In this document: piece after piece, positions 8,469-53,972 of the stretch
How positions within the stretch are numbered: the stretch's first letter is position 1
Layout: each line of letters begins with the position of its first letter
NCBI GenBank assembly: GCA_022496805.1
Contig: CM040103.1
Coordinates: 3,490,001 to 3,554,000, forward strand
DNA length: 64,000 bases
DNA from: Pohlia nutans
Taxonomy: Eukaryota > Streptophyta > Bryopsida > Bryales > Mniaceae
Reading direction: 5' to 3'
Position numbers and translations under genes: made by a program
Notes under the pieces: generated by a model
Told to the model about the DNA's origin: nothing
The model's input: only the letters and a program-made list of their open reading frames with translations
Database searches by the model: none

Positions 8469-11033
8469 ATGGCTTCGCCGTCGATGAAGCCAACAAGCAC
8501 AAGTGAAAGATTGGAGGATGATTGTATGAGCCTTTCAACTGATGAAGCAAGTGACGATGATGATGAAGAATGTGTTGAAAAAAATCATGGCGTGAAACTT
8601 GACACTAGTGTGCACAACAAAACTCTGCAGCACACAAACAGGTGGGTAACAACGTGATTTGCTAGAGACTTCGTGCAAATGGTTGGACTAGTATGATTTC
8701 AAAATGTTTTCATTTTTACATGTTTGCCATAATTAAAAATCATTCTATTATCACTTCAAATTTCTTACTACTAAGCAATTAAAGTATGGATTTCATTTCT
8801 TTATTTTGCATTTCTTTACCTCATATTTTTGCATTTCTTTGTAATGACATAGTGATGACAATCTCAAACCGAAGCACAAGGTGTTTTTAAGCCATAGTGG
8901 TGTTCAAAGAGACTTTGTGGAGCAATTGTGCATGGATTTGGAAGCATATGACCGATATCCCTTTTATGCAAAGCGAAGAAGTAGCTTACCAATTGGAGAG
9001 CCATTTCCACAACTTATTTTTGATGCTATACAACAATGCCAAGTTGGTGTGTTGGTATTATCAAAAGAGTTCTTTACAAAGGCTAAATGGCCAATGGTGG
9101 AATTAGTTGAAATGGTGAAAGAACTAAAAAATCCTGCTTCAAGCATAAAAATCATTCCTGTGTTTTATCGCATTTCACGAGAAAAGTGGTTGGATCCAAC
9201 AAATCGTGCACAATGGATTTCACAATGGGAAAAATGGGCAAGTCAAGACGGAAGAATAAAGATTGAAGAATGGAAAGAAGCTTTGGAAATATTGAAGCCA
9301 ATACTAGGTCTTATAATGACCAATGGAGAAGTTGATTTACGAAAACAAATTGTACAAGCAGTTTGTAAGTTGGTTCACTTGATTCAGAGACAAGATTGAA
9401 TGATTCATACATACAAGGAAGATTGCGATTATGTCAGGTATTTGAAATAAAACCTTAATGTACTAGAATTTTCTTTACATTGCAAAAGTTTTAAAGGCTT
9501 TGTAACGTTAGTAAAGAGTTTCTCTACAATGTTGTATTTATAATCATGTAATTCATGTTATTATAACTTATTCCACATTAATTGAAGTAACTCTTTACAA
9601 ATGGTGTATTTTGTAGATTGTACATGAAAAGATCAATCAAAAAATACAACGCAATGGAGTTCGTGTAATTGGCTTATATGGAATGGGTGGCATTGGTAAA
9701 ACCACCATTTGCAAGGCTATGTGTAATGAAATGTCCAAAGAATGCAATGGCAAAGTATGTCACATTGAACTTAAAAGTTCAAGTGAATCTCTTCAATTAC
9801 TACGTGAAGTATTGAAAAGGCTCACAAATATAAGGCCTCAAATGTTGGATGGATTAAACATTGACGAGGTATGGATTATTTTTTCCTCTCAATTTTCATT
9901 TATGATATTATATACATTTTAGAGTGTTTTCTTTGAAAAAAAAATAAGTTTGAAAGAAAATATTTTTGTAAGATGTATTATTCCTGATTTCAATACTATA
10001 TAAAATTATGCTATATTGAATACTAGGTATTTCACTAACATATACAATTATTATGGAAATTGCAGTGTCACGACCAACTAAATAGATGCATTGTGGATCA
10101 TCCGGTGTTTCTTACAATTGAAAATGTTTCAATTGACCATAGCATCATTAAGCAAGCAAAGACTTATCTTGGAACAAAGTGGAGTGAAGGAAGTGTGGTA
10201 ATTGTGACATCACGTTCTTTAGATGATTTAATGTATTTGAGAGAATACATCAACGAGAGTGATTGTATGGAGGTACCAAAATTAACAAAAGACGAGGCAA
10301 AGTCTTTGTTTCTAAATCATGCAAAGTCAACAAACAATTATGATGCCACAATTAAAATGGACGAGCAACTTGTGAACCATTGTGTGGAAAAGTGTTGCTT
10401 TTCTAAAGGCACATGCAAAGATGATCATCATTACATTCCTTTGGCACTTGAGGTACTACGTGACGAGCTTGCATATATTGGATATGATCCCAAAAAATGG
10501 AATGCGTGGTTAAAGAAAATTGATACGTTTGAGATGGAATTATCAAAAAATAAGCATCCAATCTTCTCTATCTTGAGGACAAGTTATGATAGCTTGAGTC
10601 TTAAAGCTCAAATGCTGTTTATGGACGTTGCTCTATTTTTACCATGTGAACAATATCAAAGTTGGCATTGGGGATGTTATTTGAAGTGCAACTTATTAGA
10701 CTGGCTTGGCATGGTGCATACACCAAAAGTGGCCAAAGACTTGTTGGAGCAAGTAAGGATTTACATTGTTGTACCCTTGACTTTTCAAAAAGATAGAATA
10801 TAACACAACTTGTCTTCATTCATGTATCATTGTAAATCCATCATTAGTATTTGATAAGTTGTTGACATACGAAGGTGTGTTGTTGCTGACAATATAAATT
10901 TTTAAAAATCTAATATTTTTGGATTTTCTTTGCAGCTGAAGAAGAAATCACTTTTGGAGGACCTGAGTGATGGCACTGGACAAAAATTGGAATGCATGAT
11001 CTTTGGCGTGAGTTTTGTGTTGCTGAAGCAAAC
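8469..11033 (+). CDS. TIR-NB-ARC part of an NLR-TOPLESS fusion gene (two frameshifts)
   Basis: Exons: 8469-8641 (acidic N-terminus), 8853-9437 (TIR), 9617-9868 (P-loop), 10066-10752 (rest of NB-ARC), 10936-11033 (MHD region). The TIR opens VFLSHSG and has the SLPIGE loop and KWPMVEL, whose Glu sits where plant TIR NADases have theirs. NB-ARC shows GMGGIGKTT, an RNBS-B-like VVIVTSR, IPLALEVL in place of GLPLAL, and MHDLW. Kinase-2 reads VFLTIENVS, so the usual two aspartates are missing. The TIR frame ends early at 9399, yet SYIQGRLRLCQ continues in another frame to a proper donor at 9438. A second shift lies at the A5 run 10982-10986, just before MHDLW. Correcting each by one base makes all exons fit phase. 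A transposon interrupts right after VAEAN. The gene resumes at 17977. Confidence 0.8.
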
Positions 11034-11068
11034 ATTACAAAAATACTCAGGCTATGCTAGGGCTGTAT
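11034..11068 (+). repeat. Left terminal inverted repeat of the two-gene transposon
   Basis: Starts ATTACAAAAA and pairs with 17934-17968 in inverted orientation, with a few gaps and mismatches. Confidence 0.7.
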
Positions 11069-11225
11069 TATGGGAGCGGGTTGCAAGAGTTTTAATGAGG
11101 GTGCCCGTGGTCGAGCCTAAGCTCAGGTCAGTTAGACGACGTGGCCGGATTTCGAGGATGTGGACAAACTTGACCTCGTTATTGGTCTGAGGAGCGTGGT
11201 ATGCTTGAGTGTGACTGTTCGGGCG

Positions 11226-11482
11226 GGAATATCGATGCGCAAGAAGGAAGACAGCTGTACATTCTCCCGCTTTTTCTCCCAACAATCTCACGCGACCGTT
11301 TGCACTTTTCTACTTTCCCGCGATGGTGCTTCATTTGCTTTGCTGCTTCTCCAGCTTTGTGGCTTATGCGAATTTCTGAGTTTCACTTTTGAGTCTCTCA
11401 GTTTTGCTCGATTTCTCTTGTTTGATCTTTTGCACTTCTTTGAGGTCGTAGGGTTAGCATTTCATTTTTTTTTCCACTAGCA
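11226..11482 (+). promoter_or_regulatory. Promoter region of the transposon partner gene, E2F-like site
   Basis: TTTCCCGC at 11314-11321 matches the E2F consensus TTTSSCGC and lies 162 bp before the start codon. Further CCCGC motifs occur nearby. The opposite gene of the element has the same kind of site at a similar distance, which suggests cell-cycle-linked expression of both. Confidence 0.4.
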
Positions 11483-13314
11483 ATGAGGCCTCGAAGCTAT
11501 GTACAGAGTGTTATTCTGTACCATTTGCAGAACAGGGATGGAGATTACATTCCTACGAAGGTAGAGGTCAATTCATGGGTGGGTTTGGAACCAGAGAAGA
11601 AAGGGGGTCATGCTCGTGAAGCGAAGAAACATGGCAACTATTTGGCTAGGGTTTTAAAGTTCAAAGTAGGTCCAGATGGATCAACAATTTCGGCAATTCA
11701 AGTCCAACATGCATACAGCCGTCAGCAACTGAAGCTCAATCCCAGAGATGTTCCAGCAGACGGAGCTTGCAATTGTAAGTAATCTTATCAACTTTTTCAT
11801 TACAATTGAATTATTAGTACACACCTTAGATTTGAAGAATCAACAAAGAATAAATTGTTTTATTAAACTCTTATTTATTCACTCCTAATAGCTATTAAAA
11901 GGTGTGAAAGATCTTGGTGATTTATCATTATTAGGTATGTAAGAGCTTGGTGGTCTTCAAAAGTTTTCAAAAGTTTTTTAGCATTAAGCAAGGAGCTAAA
12001 AACTTTTGAAGACTACCAAGCTCTTACACAGATAGATAGACACACCAACCCTATTGCAAGGCCGGCGTGAATAAAGTGTCCGTTCGTAATGTCAATGCCT
12101 CGATGCCCACCGGACAAAGGGACATTGGAACTCTTACACGCCTAATAATGATAAATCACCAAGATCTTTCACACCTTTTAATAGCTATTTGGAGTGAATA
12201 AATAAGAGTTTAATAAAACAATTTATTCTTTGTTGATTCTTCAAATCTAAGGTGACTTTACTGATAATTCCATTTTACATTTAGGTTTTATGAAATTTCT
12301 TATCTCTTTCTAGCACTTTATTAAATTTGGAATTGATTGTCATGAATTGCAGACTTATATCCATCAAAATATGACGACTGGGTTGCACCTACTAGTGTTG
12401 TACGAGTCATTTGTGTCTACCATGCTGAAATTGGAGAGGCAAGTAAGGGTTCTCGCAGTCATAGACAGCTCATGGAAGAGTCTGTGTACTTTTACAATTC
12501 GTGGTACCATCCAAATACTACTGGAGGATTCGGTCGTTTAGAAGCAATTCCTTTGCCTTCATTTGATGATCCGGCCTGGTCATTACCTGACATGGCAACA
12601 ACAGAAGCTTTTAGAGCGAAAATGAGAGAGGATTTTCTTTCTGCAATGAAACCGAGTACTGGAAGCCGAGTAACACACCTCAGTTGGTTTATGCCAATCA
12701 ATGTCATGGTTGATTTGTTCGCTATTTCAACAAACATTCATAAAACTCGGACCCTGTTTGTTTTTAAAGATAATTCGGAGGAAGTCTTTGACTCACTTAT
12801 GGACAAAGGGTGGAATGAAAGGATATATTTAGGGGCTGATGAGATCAAGTGTTGCGTAGACTTAGCCTCAGTAATCTTCAAGTACCATGTAGGACGTAGC
12901 ACATTATACTCAAACTATCAGTACAATAGGTTCCGATTGAAAGCTGGTGGTATGTGGCAACCAATGGATCAAACAGGGCCTATTCATATTGTCAAAGTTC
13001 TTTGCCAAATGGATGAGTGGCAACAAGAACTTGAGGTTGGGCACAATTGGACATTAACTTCCTTGCGGTCAGAAGTTGAAATGGCATTAGGAGCAAGTGC
13101 CCCCTCTAAATTCACGTTCTACATTGTTCATGAAGATCAGCAGTCTACAAAGGTAATTTCAAAAGCCATTTATTATTTATTTAAATTTTATTATATTTGA
13201 AGCCTATCTGAGTGTAATTTTGAAATACTGCAGGTGAATCGCAGGCATGAGAGGAATAGGATTGCGGGAGATGTCTTACCTCCACGGATGTTGAAGATAA
13301 TTCCTGATGAGTAG
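11483..13314 (+). CDS. Transposon partner protein, 390 aa, function unknown
   Basis: Exons 11483-11774, 12353-13152 and 13234-13314 total exactly 391 codons, with good donors (GTAAGT) and acceptors. I do not recognise the family. The N-terminus (about residues 25-95) looks like a small beta-rich domain (NSWVGLEP, NYLARVLKF), perhaps BAH- or Tudor-like, but that is only an impression. The middle is Trp- and Tyr-rich (YNSWYHP, YNRFRLKAGG). The C-terminus ends LPPRMLKIIPDE. No Kelch repeats or PHD finger are seen, so it is not a RAG2 copy. Its stop codon lies two bases from the stop of the convergent transposase gene. Both frames are intact, which argues for selection or a young insertion. Intron 1 is bloated by a foldback MITE that itself holds a SINE. 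Confidence 0.7.
11808..12270. mobile_element. Foldback MITE, copy 1, with nested SINE
   Basis: Long inverted arms carry AAGAGCTTGGTGGTCTTC and its complement. Ends are GAATTATTAGTA and TACTGATAATTC. A second copy lies at 14429-14778. The right arm is split by a SINE at 12030-12130. It sits within intron 1 of the partner gene. Confidence 0.7.
12030..12130 (-). mobile_element. SINE-like retroposon inside the foldback MITE
   Basis: Flanked by CTCTTACAC on both sides (12021-12029 and 12131-12139). Copy 2 of the foldback shows the empty site. Read on the minus strand it shares its core with 7016-7163 and ends in the same TATCTATCT tail. Confidence 0.7.
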
Positions 13315-13316
13315 TA

Positions 13317-16300
13317 TTACTGGACTTCTTCAGCAACAAGTGATGTACTTGAATCTTTTGGTTGATTAGTTGAACGAGGGACCCATTTAGATCCAACTCT
13401 ATCACAATTTTGGCGCCACAACTGACTGTGTAAATTTGCACTTGAATTAATTGACGCTTCTCTTCTCTTCTGTATGCGTGCCTCGACAGTGAGCCCTTCC
13501 TCTGACTGCTCCCAAAGACTTGCAGAAGTTTTATTTTCTTTCTCTCTGAAACGGTGTTGAATCAGACGATACCAATGTTGGTATGTCTGTTCTAAAGGAC
13601 TCAACTTTGTTCGACCTCCCCCGTGTTGTGTATGAGCTTGATATGCTGCTTTAGCAGCGTAATGACTGTATTCCATTCCTTGATTAGACCATACAGATAG
13701 GCTTCCATATTCGAGCACGAACCACGGTGCATGCCTCACGATTATATGCTGCCAAAATTAATCACATCCATGTTAGAGTGAGCTTTGATACAAAGATGCT
13801 GTGTGCATCCATTAACATGTCAAAACTACCCAATGGGTAGCAGATGCCATGAACAAGCTTACAAGTCGTTCATCCCCAGCAGCAGATAAAGCAGGCACCA
13901 AGTTGTCAATGGACAGGCAGTTGATTCTGGAGACTTCACAAGCTGCTCTGAGTATGTCGAATAGCGAGGCATCGAATTCTTATCGAATACCGCCATACAG
14001 AGTTGAATCAAACGATTGAAGAGGTTCCACGTTCATCTCCCCATAAGATGATTCTGCTTCCAGCAATTATTATCTCTGATAATAAGTCCCCAGAGTCAAC
14101 CGCCTGTCCACTGACAACCTGCTTTATCTGCTGCAGGGGATGAACGACCTGTAAGCTTGTTTATGGCATCTACTACTTATTGGGTAGTTTTGACCTGTTA
14201 ATGGATGCACACAACATCTTTGATTCATGGTGCATGCCACACGATTATATGCACCCAAAATTAGCCACATCCATGTTAGAATGAGCTTTGATACATGGAT
14301 CAGACATAAAAAAAAGTGTTACAACAACCTCAAACATGTAAGTTATAGTCTATTACTCCCTCCATTCCAAAGTTATTGTTCAACTTGTTTGCTTCGTATT
14401 TCTTTGAGCCAATTTCATTGATCGTATTAGAGTTATCCGTAAAGTCACCTTGGATTTGAACAATCAACAATTTTTTTTGCTTTATTATACTCTTATTTGT
14501 TCACTCTAAATAGTTAGAAGGTGTGGAAGATCTTGGTGGTTTATCATTATTAAGTGTGTAAGAGCTTGGTGGTCTTCAAAAGTTTTTAGCTCCTTGCTTG
14601 GTGCTAAAAAACTTTTGAAAACTTTTGAAGACCACCAAGCTCTTACACACCTAATAATGATAAACCACCAAGATCTTTCACACCTTTTAATAGCTATTTG
14701 GAGTGAATAAATAAGAGTTTAATAAAACAATTTATTCTTTGTCGATTCATCAAATCTAAGGTGTGTACGGATAACTCAATTGTAAGAAACATGATTAAAA
14801 AAGGTTTCAAATTATGTCACTAGAATGATTGAAGAACATTGCATGTGTTCATTGCAACCTAAATAAAATTAGCCACAAGGAAGCATTTTTTGACCTACTT
14901 CAAAAAGCACTTTCAAACATGACTTTCAAACATGACAATAACTTTGGGACGGAGGGAGTAACTCACAATATAATGCGTGACATGTGTCTCGCCATAAGCA
15001 GCAATGTAATCGTGTCCCCATTTTGAAACAAGATATTGAAATTCATTTATCTCATTCTGTTTTAGTGTTAGTCCCGAGAAGTAAGGTCGAAGATTGTCCA
15101 ATCCTTGCCAAACTGCAAGCTTTGCTCTTCTAGCCTCTCCGCCATCAATGAAGTTTCTTTCAGCTGTTATGACATCTGTGAACAACTTCTCTGATCCAGA
15201 AGGCAAAGTCGACTTCTTAAATAGCTTTTCGGCATGAACTCCGTTGAACGATGGCTTACTGGGAACACTATTCTTCTTTCCTGATAGTTTATCATCTTTG
15301 AAAATTACCACATTTCCGCCATGTGCACCTGTAGAGGATATAACTCTTTGCATATCTTCAATTGCCTCCTCTTGCAATTTCTTATCTCTTATTGTCCAGA
15401 TGAACTGAAAATGCAAATGGACAATCTTCTCAACAATACGGTTAAAAGCATGTAACGTGCAAATGTGCACCCTTGCAAGGGGAATAGGCAAGATTGGTTT
15501 CCACCGAGCCAAAGCTGCACCTCCACTGATAGGCTTTGATTGCACATTAGATGAAAACAGGCCACCTTCCCAAGTGCTTCCTCCTCGTTTGCCGAATGCA
15601 GCTCGAGCCTGTTCGGCTGTTCCGATGATGGTCTTCTGAGCTGCTTGGGAACAATAGATGCAACGGTGTTTGGCACAAGCTCCGTGGCCTAAACCATACA
15701 TACATTTCACTGTCTTCATATCGGCTGATAGATGCCATTCCACTTTGAATTCACCCACCCCAGAGACTACCAAAATTTGTCCAGCCTCTTGTGCTTTGAT
15801 CAAAGATGGAATTCTGGTCTGGTTGAACACCCAAGATAGGATCTCATGCGACTCTTTCTCTACTTGGAAGCAACCGATTGGCCAGATCTCACGTTCACTT
15901 TGAACTGCAATATACTTTGGATCTTTTTTGTCTATTTGTCGATCCAAAGCACGGTTCATTATAGTCATGCTGATTCTCTCAAACTTTTGTCCATGTATAA
16001 TTTCAGCCTCGTCTAGCTTTATCACAAATATGAGTGGTTTTTCACCGAGCTCTGCATGAATAAAAGAATAATACATTTATCAGCTACTTTAAAATGAATC
16101 CAATAGAGTATCAATGATTGCACACAAGAGTAGTATAAATGAACACACCTTCTGGGGTGAAATTGTACAATGCAACCATTGTTCTCTGCACCATCTCGAC
16201 GTCTACAAAGAATGAATTCTTTGTGGTCAACTCCACTCGTACAGTCTCCTTCTTCTTTGACTTCGTGCTCGGTTGGATTTCTAAAATGTTGCTGATTGAA

Positions 16301-17559
16301 TAGTAATCTCCTACAAAATCCCGGAGCTTAGCATTCATTTCTCGACGAAGTAATGAGACATGCCAAGGCCGCGGCAAGCAGCCAACCCGTAATCCAGATC
16401 CAACAGCTTTGATACCGTTCTTAAATTTTCTGTAAATCTTTGAATAACCAATGTCGGTCATTCCACTAGAATCCTTTATCTCGCAAATTTCAGCTGCTCC
16501 AATCTGAGAACCGATCTTCTCCAAACACTCGTTCGCAATCTTAGTGGTGACCGACTGCATGCATGGACTTTCTAACATGGTGCTGACTTCTTTCTTTGAA
16601 AGGATTGTAGCAAGTACCTTCCCTGATTGTATTTGAATCTCTTCTGATCCACACAACCTTTGCTTCGATCCAGTTTGTGCGTTACGTTTTTGAATACGCT
16701 GCATAGTTGCTCCAGCAATAATCGATCTCGCCAACCGCCTCTGGTTTTTTGCATGACCTCCAGATTGAGACAACTCATGCAAATCTTTACGAGCTCTGCA
16801 TTTTTGCACTTGACCCAATCGTTTTGACTCAAGTTGTTTGCATTTCTTTTCTAGGATTGAGATACTTCTCAACGCTTCTTGTAATGCTACACTCATCTTC
16901 TGTACCTCAAGCATGTGAGATTGTTCTAGCTCGTTTATTTTCTCATTTCTTTCTCTCCGAATTGCCTCTATTTCTGATTCAAGTTCTGATTCTGATTTCA
17001 TACTTTCCTCAAGATCTGTGCTTAGCGATGCAACTAATGTGGTTGCACTTCTCTCAAGATTGACATATTCATTTCGCATTTGCTCAATTTCGTTATGAAG
17101 GTAGGAACAGTCAACAATTCGGCTCTGCTCAAAATTGGTCTTCTGTTGCATCAATTCTAATTGTAATGTCTGCAATTCCCGGGCTTGCTTGTCTATACGA
17201 TCTTTCAAAATCTCACAGTCTGATTGCATTTTGAATCGCTCAATGACGAGTTCTCTCTCCGATTCAGAATTGTTCAAGCTTTGGGTATAACCAAGCAAAC
17301 CTCCCTGACCATCACCTACAAACTCTAGGAGACTTTTCACATCATTAAACCTTGGTCGTTTCCCTGTTGATGGATCCAAAGGGTAAATTGAAGAATCCAA
17401 CCATAAATCAAGGTTAGAATCACCTCGTTTCCGTTTCTCAGCAAAAGCTGATCTCGGCGTCTGTTCATGAATTAATCGTCCTCTCACTATTAAAGACTGG
17501 TACTTTGGGTTCAAGGACACCTGAACTTTGAAAGGACGATCAGAATCTATTTTCTCCAT
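13317..17559 (-). CDS. Transposase, 975 aa, RAG1/Transib-like catalytic layout
   Basis: Exons 17559-16149, 16051-14967 and 13748-13317 total exactly 976 codons. Residues 41-47 are basic (EKRKRGD); about 95-255 form a long coiled coil. The catalytic half shows IKLDEAE (D484) before a beta strand (RISMTIMNR), LSADMK (D581), a CIYC pair (C601, C604), CTLH (C668, H671), HIIVRH (H833, H838) and SNQGME (E858). In mouse RAG1 the same order is D600, D708, C727/C730, H937/H942, E962. The H-to-E spacing is 20 in both, and D-to-C is 20 here against 19. CTLH also recalls the CxxH of hAT transposases. So a DDE transposase with a RAG1-type zinc site is likely; catalysis is inferred. Intron 2 holds a Stowaway-type MITE with a foldback inside, plus an inverted-repeat element. 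Confidence 0.7.
13723..14294. repeat. Direct duplication of exon 3 start flanking an inverted-repeat element
   Basis: 13723-13791 and 14226-14294 are diverged copies covering the start of transposase exon 3 and its acceptor. In the outer copy the acceptor CAG has become CAT-like, so only the inner copy splices. Between them lies the inverted-repeat element. Confidence 0.7.
13792..14221. mobile_element. Inverted-repeat element, arms about 125 bp
   Basis: Ends AAAGATGCTGTGTGCATCC and GGATGCACACAACATCTTT; the arms match over about 125 bp with several mismatches. Non-coding. No clean target duplication. Confidence 0.65.
14356..14958. mobile_element. Stowaway-type (Tc1/mariner) MITE with nested foldback
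   Basis: Ends CTCCCTCCATTCCAAAGTT and AACTTTGGGACGGAGGGAG are the well-known plant Stowaway ends, flanked by TA on both sides (14354-14355 and 14959-14960). It lies in transposase intron 2, just past the GTGAGTTA donor. Confidence 0.85.
14429..14778. mobile_element. Foldback MITE, copy 2
   Basis: Ends AGAGTTATCCGTA and TACGGATAACTCA (terminal base mismatched), flanked by ATT on both sides. Arms pair over more than 100 bp. Same family as 11808-12270; inserted inside the Stowaway MITE. Confidence 0.75.
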
Positions 17560-17710
17560 TGAGAAACTTAGTAAAAAATATTATAAAAATAAGCTAAAAA
17601 AAATGCATCGGAAGCAAGCCAAAAAAAAATCGAAAAATCGTCCATAATGGCAGACAGTGTTGGACAGTCAAAAAGGAAAAAACCGTGGGCAGTGTCAGAC
17701 AGGCAATCAG

Positions 17711-17749
17711 GCGCCAAAGATGGGAGACAAAGACGACAAAGGCGGGAAA
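17711..17749 (-). promoter_or_regulatory. E2F-like sites upstream of the transposase
   Basis: On the minus strand TTTCCCGC (17742-17749) and TTTGGCGC (17711-17718) match the E2F consensus, 150-190 bp before the start codon. A weaker ATTCCCGC lies near 17764. Confidence 0.4.
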
Positions 17750-17933
17750 GCAACAGTGAATAGGCGGGAATAAGCGCCAGCAAGGCTTGCCATCAAGGAC
17801 AAGAAGAGCGCGCGAACAGTTAAGAATGAGATTTTCAAACCGCTTTGCCCGCTTCCCGGCTTGAGCAGGGATAGGGGAATAATGATCGCGAGGACTACTT
17901 TTCAAATATTGTACAACCATATTTAATTAATTC

Positions 17934-17968
17934 TAACAGCCTTTTATGGACCTGACTTTTTTTGTAAT
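17934..17968 (-). repeat. Right terminal inverted repeat of the two-gene transposon
   Basis: Reads ATTACAAAAAAAGTCAGG on the minus strand and pairs with 11034-11068. Confidence 0.7.
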
Positions 17969-17976
17969 GAGCCAAT

Positions 17977-20900
17977 AAAATTGGGACAGTGTTCTTGGAA
18001 GAGGAAAGCAATGAGTTTAATTCTTCCTTGGGGAGTATAAAAAGAATGTGCTTTTTAAATGAGGGATGGAAAGGTTTAGAGCATGTGAGTTTCAAAGCCT
18101 GTGTGGATGTTTCAGTGTTGAAGATAAACATCCAATGGTTTGTGGAATCATCAAAGATATTTTTGGATTTTAAAGGATTAAAATCCCTCAAGAGCTTGGA
18201 ATTAAAGGCAAACAAATTCCTAATCAATTGTGATGGATTCGGATCGTTGAAGAACCTTGTGGTTTTCAAATGGTGGGCTGGTAAAGCTTCTTCACCATGC
18301 ATTGAAGAAATTGGGAGTTTAACAAAGCTCCAAATTTTGGAGATCAAGGGTTTTGATGGTGACAGACTGCCAAATGTAAGAAAGTTAATAGCATTGCAAG
18401 TGGTGTGCTTTGCACATTGCGACAATGTGGTGGTAATAACAGGTTTAAGTTCAAAGTTATCCAACTTGAAATCCCTATGTATAAGCAGGTGCTCAAAGCT
18501 TCAAAAGTGCCCAGGTTTGGGTGAATTAAATGCTTTGGAGGAGCTTGATTTGTGGGGATGTAACAAGCTCCAAGAGTTGCCCTCTCTACAAAAATTGATA
18601 AAGTTGAGCCATTTGAACATTTCTGAATGCGTATTGTTGAAACAAGTGCCAGATCTAAGTGATTCAGCCGCATTAAAGGAGCTTAGAGCTAAAGGTTGTT
18701 CTAGACTAGGTCATTTGCCTCCTCCTCGAAAACTCAAGAAACTAGAAGTTTTGAGGTGCACGGATTTGTCAAAAGTGAATTCACTAGATCTAGGTGAATT
18801 TCCTCGATTAAAAGAGTGGACATTTGGTTGGTCAAAGGCATTGATGAACGTAACTTGCTCAAAATACATGTGTACTTTGACAACAATTGACCTTACTCTT
18901 TGTCTGAATCTAGAAGAGCTGCCAGATTTGAGTAATTTCCCTAACTTGGAAAAACTCATCCTCCAAGGTTGCGCAAGTTTGTTGAGGTTATCTAGCAGTG
19001 AACCATTGCTTGCATTGAGGGTTCTTGATCTAGAAGGGTGCAAGAAATTGAATCGATTGCTAATGCAATTAAATGGCTCAATGGATCTTGAGGTGCTTTG
19101 TCTACAAAAGAGTGGAATAGTGATGAGTGAAGAAGATATAACAAAACTTAAAGCATTTTGTAAAATGCTTGTAGTGTTTCCTAGATCTGCTCCATCAAAG
19201 TATGGCGATGGGCCTTATGGTGTTTCCACCAATCTCACTGATTCAAACATGGGAACTGGTATACAAAACCAATATCGGTCACGAAAATTGTGGGACCCAT
19301 TGCCCCGAGAGAAGGTATGGTTCCTTTTCTATTTTTTCTCGTTCATTAGTTGATCATTATGTATAGAGGTATTTGATAGTGCAAAATATAGTTGATAATA
19401 CAATAATATGTACTAAAAAGTGTAAATTTTCAAGTGGGAACTTTATTGACTAATTGAATTTGGTGGCCATAGGTTACAAAACTTATTTACTCCAATAATG
19501 GGTCACGGCTTCAGACACAAGGGGAGATGAATTTGTTGGCACTTACATCTAGTGGCTTGCACAAGCGTTGGGATTGGAAAAATCAGGTACCTACAAAGTC
19601 GGGGTGTGATGCAAAGTTTATGTTACTTGTTGTATATGATTCTACTTTTAATTGTTTGCTTACATCGATTTTTTCTAAAATACAGTCACATCAACAGTTT
19701 TTGGAATGACAACTGTAATGAATTTAGGAGTTGTTTTTGTTGATGTTTCTAAAATGAATCTATAATTTTTTCATGGAGATACTATTCAAAACTTATTTAT
19801 CAAAAGTTATATATTATTTATTTAATAATGCACATATTTTTCCTCAATTATTTTGACAGGCTATTGTAAGTGTTGCTCCACAATTGTGGCAACCAGTTGG
19901 TGGTGTGTTGATGATCAATGAAATCAATACCACATCTGAAGAAGTTCCAAATCGGCCTTGTTCCATGGCGCTTTGCAATGATAATGATCATTTGTTATCT
20001 GCCTCAGGGGGACATGTTTCTTTTTATACTATGATGACTGATAAGGTAAATCTCACGATTTTATGTGAAGCAGTTGTATGAGAAGGCTTAAACCATGTCA
20101 ACTCTTGGAACATCAAGTAACTTGTCAAATTCTACTAACAAAGAGTGTTTAATTTCTCTAGGTTAATCAAGAAGTTATACTACAATCTTTACCTTCACCG
20201 GCCACATTTCTGGCGTACTATCCTCACGACGATGATGTCCTTGCCATAGGACTGGAGGATTCAACAATTGCAATCATGAATGAATGGGAAAATCAGGTTT
20301 GTAATTATATCACCCCGTTCCTCGCCCGTCATCTTTATATTTTATCTTTGTAAATTATTGGTTTTCAGTAGAGTATCTATTTAGTGGATGATGTGTGTCT
20401 AGAAAAAACATGTTACTCAATGTTGTATCTTTTGTAGGTATTGTGCACATTGAAAGGCCATCAAAGGAGAATCATTGGCTTGGCATTCTCCAAGTTCTTG
20501 AGAGTGCTTGTATCACTTGGGGAAGATGATCAGGTACATATATACAAGCGCACTTGAATTGAAGCTTGTTAGTAATTGCCAAAAAAAATTATGTTTTAAC
20601 ATAAATATATATATATATATATATTTAAGTTGTCGCACATTGCAACTAAAATTGCAAACAAACATTGTTTCTAAGACATTCTCTTCTCTGCAGTTGTATG
20701 CATGGAGAACAGATCAATGGGTAAGACGTCGGTTAAACTTTGTGCAATATCAACCTGATGGAAGAGTACCATGCATAAAGGGCATCCGTGTTCAATTTCA
20801 CCATGACCAAATTCGCCTTTTGGTTGTCTGCAAATCCCAATTGGTTGTTTATAAAATTTGTGAACAAGACGATGCTTTGGAGTTGGATCATCTACGTCAG

Positions 20901-21906
20901 GTTTGTTCTTTTCTACTTCCTTCACTGCAATTCTCTTTTATTACTACTACACCCATTGCATGTTCATATTTCTTTTATTACTACTACACCCATTGCATGT
21001 TCATATTTGGTAGGCTAAAGCTACCTTGAAATGGTTGACCAATATAGTTGAAAAGAAGGTTATAATGTCTCGACATAGATTGCTTTTATGATCATAAATT
21101 ATCAATTGCAGGTTTGTGCACGATTGAACAAGAGACCATTTGACAAGATTATGGTCGGTTTTGTGCAGTGGAATCTTGAAAAACCTTTTACAGCTGCAAT
21201 TTCAGATGCCACTTACTCATGTGACAGCCAACTTGTTTATGTTAGCTTTGTTGATGGCTCTGTTGGTATTTTTGATGCCGAAAGCTTTTCGTTGCGAAAC
21301 CAATTTGCCGCACCTTTACACAAACCTCAAGGAGTGAGCGGGTAAGTAATCTACACCCATATGATATAATCTCAACAGAAATAATTTCCACTTACATGCA
21401 AGGATTATATATTTGTATATAAGCATGTTTCATTATCATCACCAAGAATCATGTATTGACATTATCGAGGTGTTTAGTTTTTGAATAGTTTTTATTTTTT
21501 CCTAGTTGTTAGAAAGCATCAACTGAGTACTTTCAAGACACATGACTTATATTTCCCTTGCTACTGCAGACCAACAACTTATCCTACCACAATTGCTGCA
21601 AACCCTCGAAGGCGAAACCAATTTGCATTGGGCATGAGTGACGGCGACGTTCTAGTAATAGAATATAATCACGGCATCAACGAAGAGATTTATGAGAGTA
21701 CGGAAGGGGTGGTGAACGACGACAGTGACAACGAGTCAAGAATGGAAGAATATGGCATTGCACATTGTGGGTGCTTTGATTATTTTTTAAGTATGAAATC
21801 CTCCCTCAAGAGATCATGCCGTGCTATATGTTTACTATTTGCGAGATGGCTTACACAAGTATGCCACGATTCAGAGACATTTGAAGAGCCTCTGTATAGA
21901 CAATAA
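17977..21906 (+). CDS. LRR plus TOPLESS-like WD40 propeller, 3' part of the NLR fusion gene
   Basis: Exons 17977-19314 (LRR), 19473-19586, 19860-20045, 20162-20296, 20438-20533, 20694-20900, 21112-21341 and 21570-21906. All join in phase without a stop. The LRR exon has about a dozen irregular repeats (LKSLELKAN, LEELDLWGCNKLQELP). The remaining 435 codons follow the second, C-terminal WD40 propeller of TOPLESS/TPR corepressors: LALTSSGLHKRWDW, LLSASGGHVSFYTMM, ATFLAYYPHDDDVLAIGLED, IIGLAFSKFLRVLVSLGEDD, IRVQFHHDQIRLLVV, TYSCDSQLVYVSFVDG, NQFALGMSDGDV. The LisH/CTLH N-terminus that binds EAR motifs is absent. The LRR exon lacks a stop and ends AAG/GTATGG, and the TOPLESS exons start 158 bp on, so one transcript is the simplest reading. 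It follows 8469-11033; the whole would be about 1,480 codons. TOPLESS acts in nuclear repression and with TNL receptors in Arabidopsis. Confidence 0.85.
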
Positions 21907-30620: not shown

Positions 30621-33600
30621 TTAATAAGCATCTATGTCATTCTGCAAGCGTATGTTGTCCATTTCCTCCAGCTGTAGCGCTATATACTCTATCATATGAG
30701 GTTTAGCATGAATTGGAATGCGGATCCTTGTTTCCGTCATGATGCCATGGATCGGAATATTATAGCTTGATTCAGATGTAGTCCTTGTTCTTATTGGAAC
30801 ATCATCCCATGCAAATATAGTTGCTTCTTTATCAACCCAACCATGTCTTTCACCAGACGGCTCCCAAGTTGCTTCTATGCAGTTTGCATATCGTTCTCTG
30901 TTTGAACCCTGTAGCCTTTGCATTCCTACCCGCATGATGGGCCAATACCACAAAACCTTCATCTTCAAGGCCCGCGAGTGTTGTCCAAACTCTAGTACCT
31001 TGCCCACGTAGAATGGTACTCTAGCTTGTACCTCACTGTGTTCTACGGTCAGCGCCACAAATTGTCCCACTTTGATGTCACTTGTTGGATCAAACGGTGG
31101 AAAAGGATCCTCCGTCCCAGAAGTGTGCATCCTTGTTGATGTTTGGCCTATTCCAACATCTCGGTTCTGGTTTGGCGTTCTTCTCACAAACACCGTTGAT
31201 GGCCTCCCTCTGCGAGGACCAAAGTAACCTCGGCCTTCCGGATCAGGCATTGTTGATAAAATTAAATCTGTTGATCTAATTATCGCGTTCAAATTCTGTC
31301 CGCTCTGAAGCAGTTCCTCTGGTTGTGCATTTTCAATTACGCTCTCTCTTCCTTCGCTTGGCCAGAACGGTATAGATCTCTCTTCCCTTCTATCTTTTGT
31401 GGGAAATTCTATAAGATACTGCATCAACCACTTTGCCTCATCAATGGCTCGCAGGTTCTTTTCTACATACTGTAATCTACTTACACACCTCTCCTTATAT
31501 GCAATAAACTCCTGCAATGCCCTCAACTCCCTGTCATCTGCTGCGAATACTTCTGCTAATCCAGGCGTCTGCAAAGTACTCGGCAACGAACGTAAACACA
31601 TGTGCCCATCGACCAGACCCCATGCGTCTCCACTGAAGTGTTTGTGTTGTACTCAGGGCATGCCGTTCTCCATATAGAACCTCATGTGGTGTGGGAATGT
31701 GATGCCCGTCAATGTATCGCCGCCCGTTTGGAGATGAGGAGTAATGAATGACTTCCAGTCCCAAACATTTTCCAGATGTCGTGCACTCACGAAGGCCTCC
31801 GTATATGACGTTCCTTTCTCCACCAGTTGTAGTAGCTCTTGCAACGAGTCAATGTCTGTTCTCTTCAGTGTATTTGATATTATGCTGAAACGCTGATCGA
31901 TGTCTTCGTGTGTGTGACCCACTATCAAAAAGCACAACTGCACTTTTTGAAAGATTCCTAACCCAACTAGAGAAGCACAAAGGGCAAACATGTAGACATT
32001 CTTGTTCTCTCGCGTGCAGTTATCCGCTTGAATTCGCAAAGTAGGAGGTACTCTATCCTTTCTGCGCTTCACATTGTTGATGACGTGCATGACCGTAGTG
32101 ACTACTTGGTTGCTGTCGTGTTTGTGATGTGCGTCTATCCACACATCCGCATACAATCCAATCCCGTGGACAAGCACCCCGAACAAATGAGTTTTCACAA
32201 ACCGTGACTCTATGTTCTTCATTGTTTGCCTCATTTTAGGAACCATAGTAGTGTTTTGGTCCATAACGTCTACAATGATAGACATGTATACGTCTGGGGT
32301 TATGATCGCTGACCTCTTGAACGTCCAATAGTCTCGTCTCTCTTCCATTTGACGACGAATGTGCACCATGTACAACTTCTTTATCTCCACTTTCGCAGCT
32401 GCATTGGTGGTTGCCTCCATTCCGCACTTATACTCCCAACAGTGATAGCATTTGGCAAACCTAGAGAACGGCGGGATTTGTACGTGAGGATATTCAGTCC
32501 GCCACATCCTATAAAATGACGAGAGCGATATTGGATTCCCATCCACCATCTTCTTTACTTCCTCGTTCACGTAGTAGAAAACATCCAACTTTGTTGTATT
32601 CATAGGGAGTAACATCAATGGCACAACAACGTTATCAATCTTCTTCCGTATCTGTCGATTTGGTTGCGTGCAGCCTGCCTCTTTCACGAACTCCTGAAAG
32701 CTTTCACGTGCTGCCGACATCTGTGCACGCTCTCTTAGTTTGCATGTATTCCCATGCACAGCTGCAACTTTTCCATACACTTGATGAGACATTTTCAATT
32801 GTTTGAAACGCCTTTGAGAGTATCCTAATGCGGTTGCATAGCAGGCATTGCACACGGCGACTCCATCCAATTTTGTGTTGTACTTGTCCTTCCTAACCCC
32901 CTGTGTACGAGAGTAAAATGCGTTCAACATTTGCAACATCCATGTTGCCCGTTCATTGAATTTTTGACCCCATGCCATGTAGCGCTAATCAAGAATATAT
33001 TTCTCACTAACTTCCTTCAAACAATTCTTCTTGCAACCACCTTTTCCCTTCGCTGCTGCAACGCTGTTCAAAGTCACCTTCTGACTTCGTGCCTCCCTCC
33101 TATCTCGAAGGGGTTGCTCGTGCCTCCTTCGATTCGGCATGGAATACTTTCTTCTTGGTCTTTCAACTGGCAACCCCTATATACATGTCATGTTGTCTAG
33201 GCTACACTGCGATTCTTGCGTTGCAGGGGATACGCCGTCTTGTGAACTAGACTGCAAGGGAGTGTTTGGAGAATCATCTGATGGATTCAGTGATATATCT
33301 TCTTCATGGAATTCGTACTGAGGTGCTACTACAGTTTGGAAGGAAAAATTTTGACCTTCTCCAGATTCTACAGAAGTAGCGATGACCGGCTCTGCGGCTC
33401 AGATGTGTGCTCTTTCCCATCGTATGACAAGTCCAAGACATTGTTGTAATTGTTCTCCAACGAGCTCCCCTGTCCACGCTGTACCATCAACAACATGTAC
33501 AACCTTAACAGCAACCTCAGAAGGACATAATTTCACGGCATGAAGTTCCATCCCGCATTTGATATTCTCATCTATCACCCCTTTTCCAACGATGTTTCCT

Positions 33601-49516: not shown

Positions 49517-52500
49517 ATGGCTCCAAAAGCTCATAATGAATGGGTGAAGCACGGATGGTGGATTTCAGCAGAAGAGTCGGAACAACCAATGCTATAGATC
49601 ACGGAGCATGCAGTAATCGAAGGGAGACATTGGTGTGCGTTGGCAAAGAAGTTTGGGCATATCCTAAACATTAGCCCTGCAACCAATGAGTATGTGTTGT
49701 TCTCTGTGACGTCACCGGATAGCGATTTGGTAAAATACAGAGTGCAAAGGAAATTATTGATGGCACCTATACCCCAAGTTTGTTTTGATGTAGACCCGCC
49801 ATTGAGGGTTTTGCGACCGCTTAAAGAGCTATGGACATCGATGCCAATTGAGTTGAAGTCAGCACGAGAAGAAGCTGTGAAGAAGTTTTTGAACCTTACA
49901 CCTCAAGATGTATTACGAGCTCGACGGCAGTTTATGGAACACACTGCATATGACGATTTACGTAATGCTCAACCTAGGAGAGCCACTCTACCAGCTCCCC
50001 CTCGTGCACCGGAGGAAACTGATCCTATGTATGGGGTATTTGCTAGGGCAGTTAATATCAATTGGGTACCTGTTGCGGAACGAAATAGAAGAATTCGATC
50101 GCCAGAAAGGGTGGAGACAGAAGATACTAACTCTCCTTCCAGTTCAGCACCGCGAAGAGTTAAATACCAAGGACTGATGGGATATCACAAGCTGGCACTT
50201 CTGAGCAGCATGCAGCTGTCAATGTTGGAGGAGATGAAGGTCAATTACATGGATCAAACATCTTTATAGCTGAAGAACACAACATTCCTACATCTACCGG
50301 TGAAGTCCTGAGAAGTATGGCAATGCACACTCGACAACAATCGGAGGCAATAATAGGATCCACTCAACATATGTATGTATCAGAGGATTTGACATCTAAT
50401 GTTCATGTTGTACCATCTACGATTCAGAGGAATGAACTTCAAGGACGCACACCAGTGGCTCCTTTTACTAGGGCAAACATGCGAGATGAAGGTCTACGCA
50501 CTCGTGCTAGAGGTGTACGCACTCGTACTAGAGGTGTACGCACTCCGAGTGCTAAACGTGCTAGAGGTGCACGCATAAACGACGATGAATTGGAGCAAGG
50601 TATCAATTATGTTGAAAGAGAAGATATAGACGAACCGTCAAATGATGAAGGTTGTCCCCAAGTTCAACACCCCGAAGTTTCAAAAGGTCCAGTGGTGACT
50701 TTTCCATCCGATGACGATATCTGCGCTGGGTATTTATGGGGGATGGAAGCTATTTTCCATACTCCAATTGATCACATTCGAAATGTGGAGAATGTAGAGA
50801 CTAACCATCGTTGTTTGACAGAGAAACGAGTGAGGGAAATGTACCAACGAATCAGAGGGAAGGACGAAGCTCTTATTTCACATTTGACACTACGACCCAT
50901 TGCATACTTGGTGGAAGTAATTGACTCAAACAGGGAAATGCATAAAAAAGAGATTCCATTTGGAACAGAGAATGCAACGAATGTATTTGATGCAGTGTGG
51001 AAGCAACACCAGACAAGTGATCCAGGGATGATGAGCATGAATAGAATTTCGTGGTTGGAAAACAGAGTTATATGGGAACCAATTGATGGGCAACATATCG
51101 TAGCAGCATGTAAACAAGCGCAACTAGAGCATGCTATGGGTTTAATGTCGGACAACGAATTCGACACAAAATATACTACCAGAAAGGCTCGCTTTATGGT
51201 GTTTGACAATCCGAGATTTTACATTGAAGCATCAGTGCGAATCAATGCAAAAGAATTTGAGCGAAAATTCTATACAACAATGTACGAAGATCTAGTGAAA
51301 TTGCGGGCTATATGGAGTGCATGTGGAAAACCAAATGCAGATATACGGACAGATGATGCAAATAGGGTAAAAGCAATCACAATGGCAGCAAGTGCACTTC
51401 ATTGGACGGTGCCTTTGAGTGGAAAATCAACAACACTTGGAAGTTTAGCAAAGCGAATGTTAGAATATACGCGACACGCATGGCAAGAAAATGAGGATTG
51501 GTATGCTGCAACATTGCAGGTATGCAAGGACCATGAAGAAGGTATACTTTGGTATAGCGAAGATGATGAAAAGAAATGGAAAGAGTACGCAAAAAAACAC
51601 TCTTTAGATCCCAATGTAGATGTGCGAGTGGATCGTAGGAGAATGGAGCGTCTATGGCTGAGACCACTATCAAGAGTACCAAAACAACGGTACTTTCGGT
51701 TAGCTCAAGAGCTGGCATCTAAACCCATTGTGGACGGTAGACGACAGTCTCAAAAGTATTATTTCAATAGTGCTACAAGCACAACTCCACCAAAGCGTAC
51801 TCTAGCTTGGGTAGTAGATCGAATTCAACGACGAGAAGCACTACGGAATGCGATCCGTTGGCTGATGGTGCAGTCTCAGAAAGAGCCTCCCAGTTCTTTG
51901 TTAGAGTTCTTTACCATAGATGTGGAAAGATTTGGCAGAGAAGGGGCACGACAATTTCAAGTGTTAGGGGATGCTATTGACAAGTCTATGAAGAAGGCAT
52001 GGGCTACTCCAAGTGTAAGGTCTGTCTTGGGGTTACAAAAGTTGGAGGTTCTTATACCTCCATTTATAAGGCAACACTATGTTGACATTGTAGCAGGAGG
52101 ACGAGGGTACGAAGGATATCGCCGTGATGTTGCTCACACTGCACAACTACGATGGGATTGGCAAGTCACCATTCCTTGTACGATGGGGGGGACGATGCAA
52201 ATCGAATTCCAATTCGATGCAGAGGGGGGTTATTTGAAAAGGAATGTGTAGAATTAGGAGAGCCTTGTTTGTGGATATTTGATTGCAGACGAAACGCCAT
52301 AGCGAGTGATGAAGCAGTTTGGAGTGAAGAGGAATATAAAACAGTATTACGACAATTGCAAAGGTGGATGATTAATATTACACGTTGGAATGCAGTGTTC
52401 TTGCTTCCTGCGGGAACATATTTTGAGCAGGGAATCAGAGATTTAATTGCAATGTCTCCTGAATGCACTTGGCTACGAGGCGCGTGGATGTTCCAACCGC

Positions 52501-53972
52501 AAACAGTGCCGACCTACGTGCACGACCTCAAACACGGTGGACAAGTAGAACGTGGTGTGCAAGTCCTGGGAGATGTGGCTATCATAATGCATCACCCACA
52601 TGAATCGCGAGTATCACAAAATGTACGTCGAGGTATGAACAAACTACCTGTGGTTTTTGAAGATAAGTGGACAGACGGTAGAATGCCGCGAGCGGAGGAC
52701 CGGTTAGAGAGGAGTCCTACGGAGTTGCATCGATTGGTCCTTGCGTATTTGCCAGAGAAGTGGGGACTTGTTGCAGTAGGCATCATGACATCCATTGCAG
52801 ACATAGTACATAATGGATTTGTGGGTAGTCAAGTTATTGTCCTTGACGGTTCTTCCACGCGGACACGGTTCTTGCATAGTACATTGCAGACTATGTTTGG
52901 CAATCAAATGCAAATGACAACAACAACAACAACAACAGTGGTTTCTGAAGGTGTAGTTCAAGAAGATGTCAATCCAAATTCAGAAGACATTGATCCAGCT
53001 GAAGAAGATGTTGGTTTAGAAGATGTTGGTCCAGAATATGTTGTTCCGATGGTAGGAAGGAGACGGTCTACAACACAAGTAGTACACTCCAGCGCTGATG
53101 AATCCTCCGACAAAGATGGCTCAGATGGAAACGATGATGATGTTGATACTATCGGGTCAGCAGGAGAAGATTTGCATTCTGAAGATACAATGGAACAAGG
53201 TGAACATGGAAAAAGACAAAACTCAGAGGTAGATTCAGAGGATGTAACATATGGCACAAACAGGGACTCGCAAGAAGACTCATCAGAGGAACATGAGTCA
53301 TCTGCTTCATATAATACTGTTGACAAACAACGTACCAACTTTTATCAAACAGGAGAAGAAGGTCCTTCTGAAGTGCAACAAAACAATATGGATCCTACAC
53401 TAGACCTAGAGGCACTTGTGGGAGGAGTGGGAGAAAAGAACATTGAAGATACAATGGAGCAACCCAAAGAAGCAAATGACATTTCACCCAACACCACCGA
53501 GGCTCAACCGGTTAATGATGAAGGAGAAGCAACAGAGCAAATGTTTGAAGAACCGTGTACCAAACGTGTAACAAGTGCCTCGCAAACAACTGCATTGGCT
53601 TCAGAATTGCTACATATACCAGAAGTAGCAGTGGAGAAGGACACTCCATCGTTATCATTTGGATGGGCCCTGCAAGAACGCAATAGGATTGAAGGAGAAG
53701 ATGGAGTGTTCTATGATGCTGATGGTGTGAGATACCATCGTATTGGAGAGATGGGACACTACAAGTATGAAGAGATCAACTCCGTTTTTGAAGGCGATCC
53801 TTCACAAATGACGGATGCCATAGTTACAAGTGCATTAGAGCATAGTAACCTTGGAACCCCTTCAAAAACTCGGACACAACTTGAGCAACATCAATTGGAG
53901 AACGAAGGACATGAGATTGGGATTCAATCCTCTACTGTGATTCCAGAAACTCCTCAGACTACTCAAGATTAG
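49517..53972 (+). pseudogene. Decayed gene of about 1,485 codons with a ParB-like domain
   Basis: The frame starts MAPKAHNEWVKHGWW, meets TAG at 49595-49597, continues to near 50165, shifts frame, runs through 52251 and shifts again at or near the G runs at 52186 and 52224. It then ends at 53972 after an acidic low-complexity tail with an (ACA)n run. The adjoining segments read as one protein. After an RGVRTRTR-rich stretch comes a ParB/sulfiredoxin-like region: IDHIRNVE, NHRCLTEKRVREMYQRI, HLTLRPIAYLV, IDGQHIVAACKQA (GQH near 51088), FYIEASVRIN. The segment after the second shift (PCLWIFDCRRN, then ELHRLVLAYL and VIVLDGSSTRTRFL) has the order of an N4/N6-type DNA methyltransferase but no DPPY motif; that link is weak. 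It is probably carried by a mobile element; no termini found. Confidence 0.5.

Follow-up and report, generated by a model that had tools for sequence, protein, structure and literature searches.

Why does an immune receptor gene of a moss end in part of TOPLESS (TPL), a gene-silencing corepressor hub that is targeted by many effectors? The question is raised by a locus at positions 8469 to 21906 of a 64,000-nucleotide stretch from Pohlia nutans (GenBank assembly GCA_022496805.1, contig CM040103.1, positions 3,490,001 to 3,554,000, forward strand), which we call the window and whose numbering is used here. A preliminary description made from the sequence alone had proposed a receptor of the TIR–NB-ARC–leucine-rich repeat (LRR) type (TNL), fused in phase to the second WD40 propeller of TPL. 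Our reading, to which we assign a probability of about 0.6, is that the window holds a damaged TNL gene joined to this propeller, and that in unbroken relatives the propeller is an integrated decoy.

To identify the tail of the gene, we aligned the C-terminal part of the TPL of another moss, Ceratodon purpureus (P0016), with a model comprising the LRR exon and the tail. The match reached 347.6 bits and covered model residues 433-786, which bears out the assignment of the tail to the second TPL propeller. The tail was also used as the query of a protein search, which allowed lengths up to ~2,480 aa and returned 992 matches; the best 120 of these were listed. Origin from another WD40 family was rejected, as the named matches among these 120, NLR fusions aside, were mostly TPL or TOPLESS-related (TPR) proteins. 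Single tail exons gave no convincing Pfam match, and the 25 of 37 families listed for Ceratodon TPL included no Pfam model specific to its second propeller. The best match to the tail was P0001 (C. purpureus M758_5G068900; 1451 aa), with 74% identity over 100% of the tail, followed by P0002 (1449 aa, from a 4889-base contig that was probably assembled from public reads), with 64% over 92%. Both are recorded as unbroken proteins and carry TIR, NB-ARC, LRR and WD40 matches. P0001 is collinear with the window by tblastn, residues 47-1444 corresponding to 8851-21885. The coding sequence of P0002 occupies 4347 of the 4889 bases, leaving 542, compared to 1,344 intron bases in the window tail alone. 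Because the contig is too short for such introns, P0002 looks like a spliced transcript through the LRR–propeller junction.

Homology to TPL sets in at model residue 433, equivalent to ~19267; from there the LRR exon continues for another 48 bases. At this point QCRSTRLPDTLPPNK of TPL aligns with QYRSRKLWDPLPREK of the window and GCRSRRLPDTLPREK of the fused Ceratodon protein P0044. The preliminary description had let the TPL part begin only after 19314/19473, and this boundary had to be moved. As the TPL match starts at ~19267, the junction intron (19315-19472) lies inside TPL-like sequence and the fusion point within one coding exon; therefore the locus does not consist of two neighbouring genes. 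The non-canonical domain is thus part of the same protein as the receptor, as in nucleotide-binding LRR receptors (NLRs) with integrated domains (NLR-IDs), both by the junction homology and by the fused proteins P0001, P0002, P0039, P0044 and P0082.

The architecture of the gene was read from Pfam matches, AG/GT borders and tblastn with P0001, P0002 and the TPL protein P0016. Its features, all on the plus strand, are:

8469..8641 (+): putative first coding exon with ATG start and acidic N terminus; open frame, donor CAG/GTGGGT; outside the P0001 tblastn alignment and weakly supported.
8853..9437 (+): TIR exon; splice borders, Pfam TIR_2 (1.1e-14) at 8848-9396; P0001 residues 47-221 in frame 1 and 221-241 in frame 3.
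9617..9868 (+): NB-ARC exon 1 with the P-loop GMGGIGKTT; splice borders, Pfam NB-ARC (1.1e-8) at 9617-9919; P0001 residues 241-324, 74% identity.
10066..10752 (+): NB-ARC exon 2; splice borders; P0001 match up to residue 551 (high-scoring pair 9991-10758).
10936..11042 (+): end of the NB-ARC with HDLWREF and the MHD region, cut by the insertion; P0001 residues 549-562 in frame 1 and 563-584 in frame 3.
11043..17988 (+): insertion of ~6.9 kb, mobile-element-like; P0001 residue 584 ends at 11042 and residue 591 resumes at 17989.
17989..19314 (+): LRR exon, open; Pfam LRR families in the stretch 17971-19350; P0001 residues 591-1035, 72% identity.
19473..19586 (+): TOPLESS propeller tail exon 1; AG/GT, phase 0; 90% identity to P0001.
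19860..20045 (+): tail exon 2; AG/GT, phase 0; matches P0001 and TPL P0016.
20162..20296 (+): tail exon 3; AG/GT, phase 0; P0001 and TPL matches.
20438..20533 (+): tail exon 4 (LKGHQRRIIGLAFS); AG/GT, phase 0; P0001 and TPL matches.
20694..20900 (+): tail exon 5; AG/GT, phase 0; P0001 and TPL matches.
21169..21341 (+): tail exon 6; GCAG before 21169, where the P0002 match starts (TPL match from 21166); gap-free against P0001 and P0002.
21570..21672 (+): TPL-like part of the last exon; the TPL match extends to model residue 786.
21673..21906 (+): fusion-specific C-terminal extension, cysteine-rich and hydrophobic; resembles P0001, P0002 and P0003; stop at 21904-21906.

TIR, NB-ARC and LRR follow one another in the order of a TNL and within one gene, according to both Pfam and the collinearity with P0001. 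The window TIR can be aligned with that of RPS4; the match takes in the 'EL' motif glutamate, which we take to be the catalytic one. From 19473 to the stop codon, the seven tail exons form a single open frame with AG/GT borders throughout. The preliminary description had listed seven clean exons; their number and openness stand, with a correction to the sixth. A start of this exon at 21112 was rejected: the matches of P0002 and TPL begin at 21169 and 21166, and the P0001 match from 21121 re-uses residues already aligned to the preceding exon. Since P0001 and P0002 run gap-free from the preceding exon into 21169, we place the start there. Accordingly, the tail after the junction intron measures 415 residues, not 434.

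Next, we asked how the fused genes of mosses are related. In a tree of 45 propeller rows, the tails of eight moss fusions formed one clade (support 100/100), as they did again in a 55-row tree; the nearest TPL rows by path in the 45-row tree were those of Ceratodon and Physcomitrium. The receptor tree was built from 58 TIR–NB-ARC sequences, nearly all from Ceratodon. Here the window, five fused proteins and P0122, P0123, P0188 and P0189 formed a clade of ten (100/95). P0122, P0123 and P0188 are Ceratodon TNLs with truncated tails, which keep TPL positions 2 to 53-55; the ends of P0122 and P0188 look like read-through of the next intron. P0189 (10G140000) and P0003 (10G139900; the end of an LRR followed by two propellers) bear consecutive locus tags, and annotation may have split a single gene into the two. 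Likewise, P0039 and P0044, from the two Ceratodon annotations M758 and KC19, may represent the same locus. In the trio of window, P0001 and P0002, the receptor tree joins P0001 with P0002 (100/99), and the trio is unresolved in the propeller trees (90/26 in the 45-row tree, open in the 55-row tree). As far as sequence comparison goes, the receptor and propeller trees agree with a single moss fusion. An AlphaFold model of P0003 had a mean predicted local distance difference test score (pLDDT) of 57, with values mostly of 60-87 and three low-confidence gaps in its first propeller. Compared against the PDB, this model matched WD40 propellers with query TM-scores (template modelling) of only 0.22-0.30, so that the predicted propeller fold is backed only in rough outline. 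Among the 60 of 118 chains listed, none was a solved structure of the second TPL propeller.

The preliminary description had called for a search of other genomes for such fusions, and this was positive in three lineages, outside mosses in database gene models with splicing as annotated. In a set of 297 sequences (296 proteins and the window model), 20 matched both NB-ARC and a TPL propeller. The moss clade contributes eight of them, five fused and three truncated in the tail. Another ten come from four Rhododendron species; they show RPS2-type LRR families and no TIR match. Six of these (P0005, P0006, P0007, P0008, P0010 and P0015, of which P0007 and P0008 are isoforms of one gene) carry two full-length second propellers in tandem, and in the other four the copies are broken. 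The remaining two are from Myrtaceae and both list TIR. This Myrtaceae case is thin, consisting of a Syzygium model with NB-ARC and both propellers (P0284) and an E. globulus model with a partial first propeller (P0264). Related models without NB-ARC were E. grandis P0063, with an LRR and both propellers, and Vaccinium P0009 and P0012, with LRR-like sequence and two second propellers. In the 55-row tree, 18 asterid rows, including Vaccinium and Ipomoea, formed a clade (100/100), and three Myrtaceae rows formed another (100/98) beside rows from Dovyalis and Vitis. A shared origin of the moss, asterid and Myrtaceae fusions was rejected for each pairwise union by the approximately unbiased test (p = 3.06e-5, 2.52e-51 and 1.86e-5), the groups tested having been named after the tree was seen.

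Two further observations concern these propellers. The second TPL propeller is tandem-duplicated both in moss (P0003) and in Ericaceae (Rhododendron and Vaccinium), in separate clades of the propeller tree. Ipomoea batatas P0011, annotated as TPR3-like, consists mainly of two second propellers in a model without NB-ARC. It clusters with the copies from Ericaceae (100/100) and might represent the end of an NLR fusion that annotation has divided.

What could a TPL propeller do in a receptor? We propose that effectors that would otherwise target TOPLESS bind the fused propeller instead, and that this binding would switch the receptor on, activating the TIR domain. Both effector binding to the moss propeller and binding-driven TIR activation are steps that we infer. 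The proposal draws on what the fusions have left out. The N-terminal (LisH/CTLH) domain of TPL was found in 0 of the 20 NB-ARC proteins with TPL propellers; among TPL-propeller sequences without detected NB-ARC it was found in 105 of 114, the nine exceptions including the window model, P0003 and the Vaccinium, Ipomoea and E. grandis proteins. In the window, a TIR–NB-ARC part occupies the place that this domain has in a TOPLESS corepressor. Note that an NLR with a full TPL (~2,150 aa) would have fitted within the length limit of the search (~2,480 aa). As the domain left out is the one that binds LxLxL clients, its omission speaks against a built-in repressor and favours a decoy. The preliminary description had left the choice between bait and output module; these counts narrow it towards bait and disfavour the output module.

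The choice of propeller is also informative. Jsi1 of Ustilago maydis uses a DLNxxP motif to bind the second WD40 propeller of maize TPL; TPL also co-precipitates with DLNxxP effectors from Sporisorium reilianum, S. scitamineum and Magnaporthe oryzae (Darino 2021, PMC8126959). The authors of that study suggest that recognition of the Jsi1–TPL complex might activate immunity. Being a published docking site for a DLNxxP fungal effector, the second propeller would make a sensible bait. The integrated domain of the moss fusions, nearest to moss TPL, thus resembles a known effector target, as is characteristic of NLR-IDs. A wider claim we advance more tentatively, at slightly less than even odds: plants would have built TOPLESS propellers, chiefly the second, into their receptors as an effector trap, at least three separate times and with the repression domain omitted each time.

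Several observations weigh against the decoy reading. Of 181 columns that are invariant in TPL, the moss propellers retain only 96-108 (53–60%) and the asterid ones 118-136; at 34 of these columns, all 7 moss tails examined differ from TPL. This divergence could mark a specialised bait freed from its normal partners, or it could mean that the effector-binding surface has been lost. To our knowledge, the published TPL effectors attack flowering plants, and none is known for mosses. Ceratodon is the only named moss with a fusion among the matches listed, in which Physcomitrium and Sphagnum are represented by TPL or TNL proteins only. It is conceivable that P0002 is a processed gene copy and not a transcript. 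Deletion of jsi1 is reported not to lower the virulence of U. maydis (PMC12886408), and SIX8 is reported to bind the first WD40 propeller of TPL, not the second (PMC10754003); the first propeller is included in the Myrtaceae models. Finally, the window copy as read cannot support TIR signalling.

The damage to this copy has three components. A frameshift at 9375/9378 lies in the TIR exon, the first frame of which runs into a TGA at 9397-9399. A second frameshift, at 10974/10977, is located near the MHD motif; the MHD stretch, which the preliminary description had placed in phase with the rest, is present but out of frame relative to P0001, and is followed by the third lesion, the insertion of ~6.9 kb between P0001 residues 584 and 591. 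The insertion (11043-17988) contains nested inverted repeats (e.g. 11785-12030 and 14555-14800, 93% complementary) and long open reading frames (ORFs) at 12346-13197 (+), 14916-16076 (-) and 16114-17580 (-), which had no Pfam match above the curated (gathering-level) cut-offs. A target-site duplication was sought, and the longest word shared in the stretches compared was 6 bases. With its frame broken by these lesions, the window copy is probably not a working TNL and would have lost TIR signalling. The LRR and tail are open over 863 codons with consistent splice borders and could give rise to a truncated product. The contrast drawn earlier, in which the TPL exons are intact and the lesions lie in the NLR half, holds for the tail but has to be qualified, in that the LRR exon is intact as well.

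For the window copy only, it is rather probable that we are looking at a plain pseudogene, so that the locus would do nothing and the open LRR–propeller frame would reflect recent death. Besides the three lesions, substitutions point this way. Residues found only in the window, only in P0001 or only in P0002 numbered 19/11/17 in the TIR, 51/16/20 in the NB-ARC, 47/34/48 in the LRR and 32/16/74 in the tail. The NB-ARC is thus accelerated in the window, and its excess of window-only changes is significant against the rest (Fisher p = 2e-5), the tail (4e-6) and the LRR (0.0014). We read this excess as apparent decay of the signalling part. It does not extend to the LRR or the tail, which do not differ significantly from each other in window-only changes (Fisher 0.10), and this, together with the 863 open codons, argues against a plain pseudogene. 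The damage pattern was rejected as proof of selection on the tail, being non-significant and based on three lesions only. By a hand calculation, three lesions in ~1,400 codons would leave the tail free of lesions about 1/3 of the time; the intact tail beside a damaged receptor is therefore weak evidence of differential constraint, and too little to show that the tail has been spared.

Other explanations concern the fusion itself. The disrupted state of the window copy would suit adjacency of two genes, the remnant of a TNL and a fragment of TPL, joined by chance or by assembly error. However, TPL-like sequence already starts within the LRR exon, Ceratodon and a separate contig provide full-length fused relatives, and receptor and propeller form matching clades. 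The same findings uphold the in-phase fusion put forward at the outset, and with independent misassembly required in several genomes, adjacency is largely refuted and scarcely credible. A built-in output module, in which corepressor partners recruited by the propeller would let the activated receptor itself repress negative regulators, would amount to a hard-wired version of SNC1–TPR1. A precedent exists in Arabidopsis, where TPR1 and the TNL SNC1 are reported to repress DND1/DND2 (PMC13251949, PMC8124997). Yet in addition to the LisH/CTLH domain missing from all 20 proteins, those of moss and Rhododendron are without the first propeller, and the moss propeller has diverged strongly from TPL; we consider this explanation unlikely. 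Slightly less likely still is a structural or localisation element, with the propeller and the C-terminal extension tethering the receptor to a membrane or a partner. The extension (21673-21906) contains CGCFDY at 21766, and CGC[FLVI]D occurs in 3 of the 297 sequences (the window model, P0002 and P0003). An extension of the CGC[FLV]D type follows each of the two propellers of P0003, and the two moss TPLs aligned lack it; it might be a membrane or acylation signal. It is not conserved in P0039, P0044 and P0082, however, and a tether would leave the capture of TPL propellers in Rhododendron and Myrtaceae unexplained.

Compared with known systems, the decoy reading places the moss fusions closest to NLR-IDs such as RRS1-WRKY: a TNL carries a C-terminal domain related to an attacked host protein, acquired in separate integrations, except that here the domain is a TOPLESS propeller. 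With TOPLESS/TPR proteins, the moss fusions share the second WD40 propeller, moss TPLs being the nearest TPL rows, but they lack both the LisH/CTLH domain and the first propeller. The TIR-NBARC-WD40 proteins of Chondrus crispus likewise combine TIR, NB-ARC and WD40 repeats (PMC7145615, PMC9806590); going by the published descriptions, they are set apart by the LRR that lies between in our case (17989-19314) and by the TPL type of our propeller. SNC1 and TPR1, a TNL and a TPL-family protein, also act together in Arabidopsis, but as separate proteins, whereas here one fused protein lacks the TPL N-terminal domain.

Generic WD40 domains have been described as NLR-integrated in six flowering plants, and HaRxL21–TPL (AT1G15750, WD40) was among the effector targets matching integrated domains (Sarris 2016, PMC4759884). 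NLRscape records that rare NLRs have WD40 and other solenoids next to the LRR (PMC9825502). NLR-IDs are reported to be expanded in Ceratodon (PMC11218826), and the Ceratodon fusions may be listed in the supplement of that study without the TOPLESS name. The main text of a survey of 305 angiosperm genomes (PMC12787737) contained no occurrence of topless, WD40 or Rhododendron. Our literature search, which lay mostly outside subscription papers and in which many papers were judged by their listing, found no publication naming TOPLESS as an NLR-integrated domain.

Elsewhere in the window, two consecutive long ORFs at 30624-32984 on the minus strand, one with a DUF7869 match (2.7e-53), are perhaps a second mobile element. 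An ORF at 378-905 on the minus strand, with a 2OG-Fe(II) oxygenase domain (1.1e-15), is probably part of an ordinary plant enzyme gene. At 50164-53969 on the plus strand, two overlapping ORFs of 695 and 614 codons had no Pfam match above cut-off.

In conclusion, within the literature searched, a receptor carrying part of TOPLESS as an integrated domain has apparently not been described before. The fusions of separate origin in mosses, Rhododendron and Myrtaceae point to the propellers as the part of TOPLESS worth guarding. If this is true, the propeller would be a hidden battleground across land plants, so far glimpsed only through single effectors such as Jsi1. The questions of which pathogens target TOPLESS in mosses and whether cell death is triggered through the fused propeller become directly testable.

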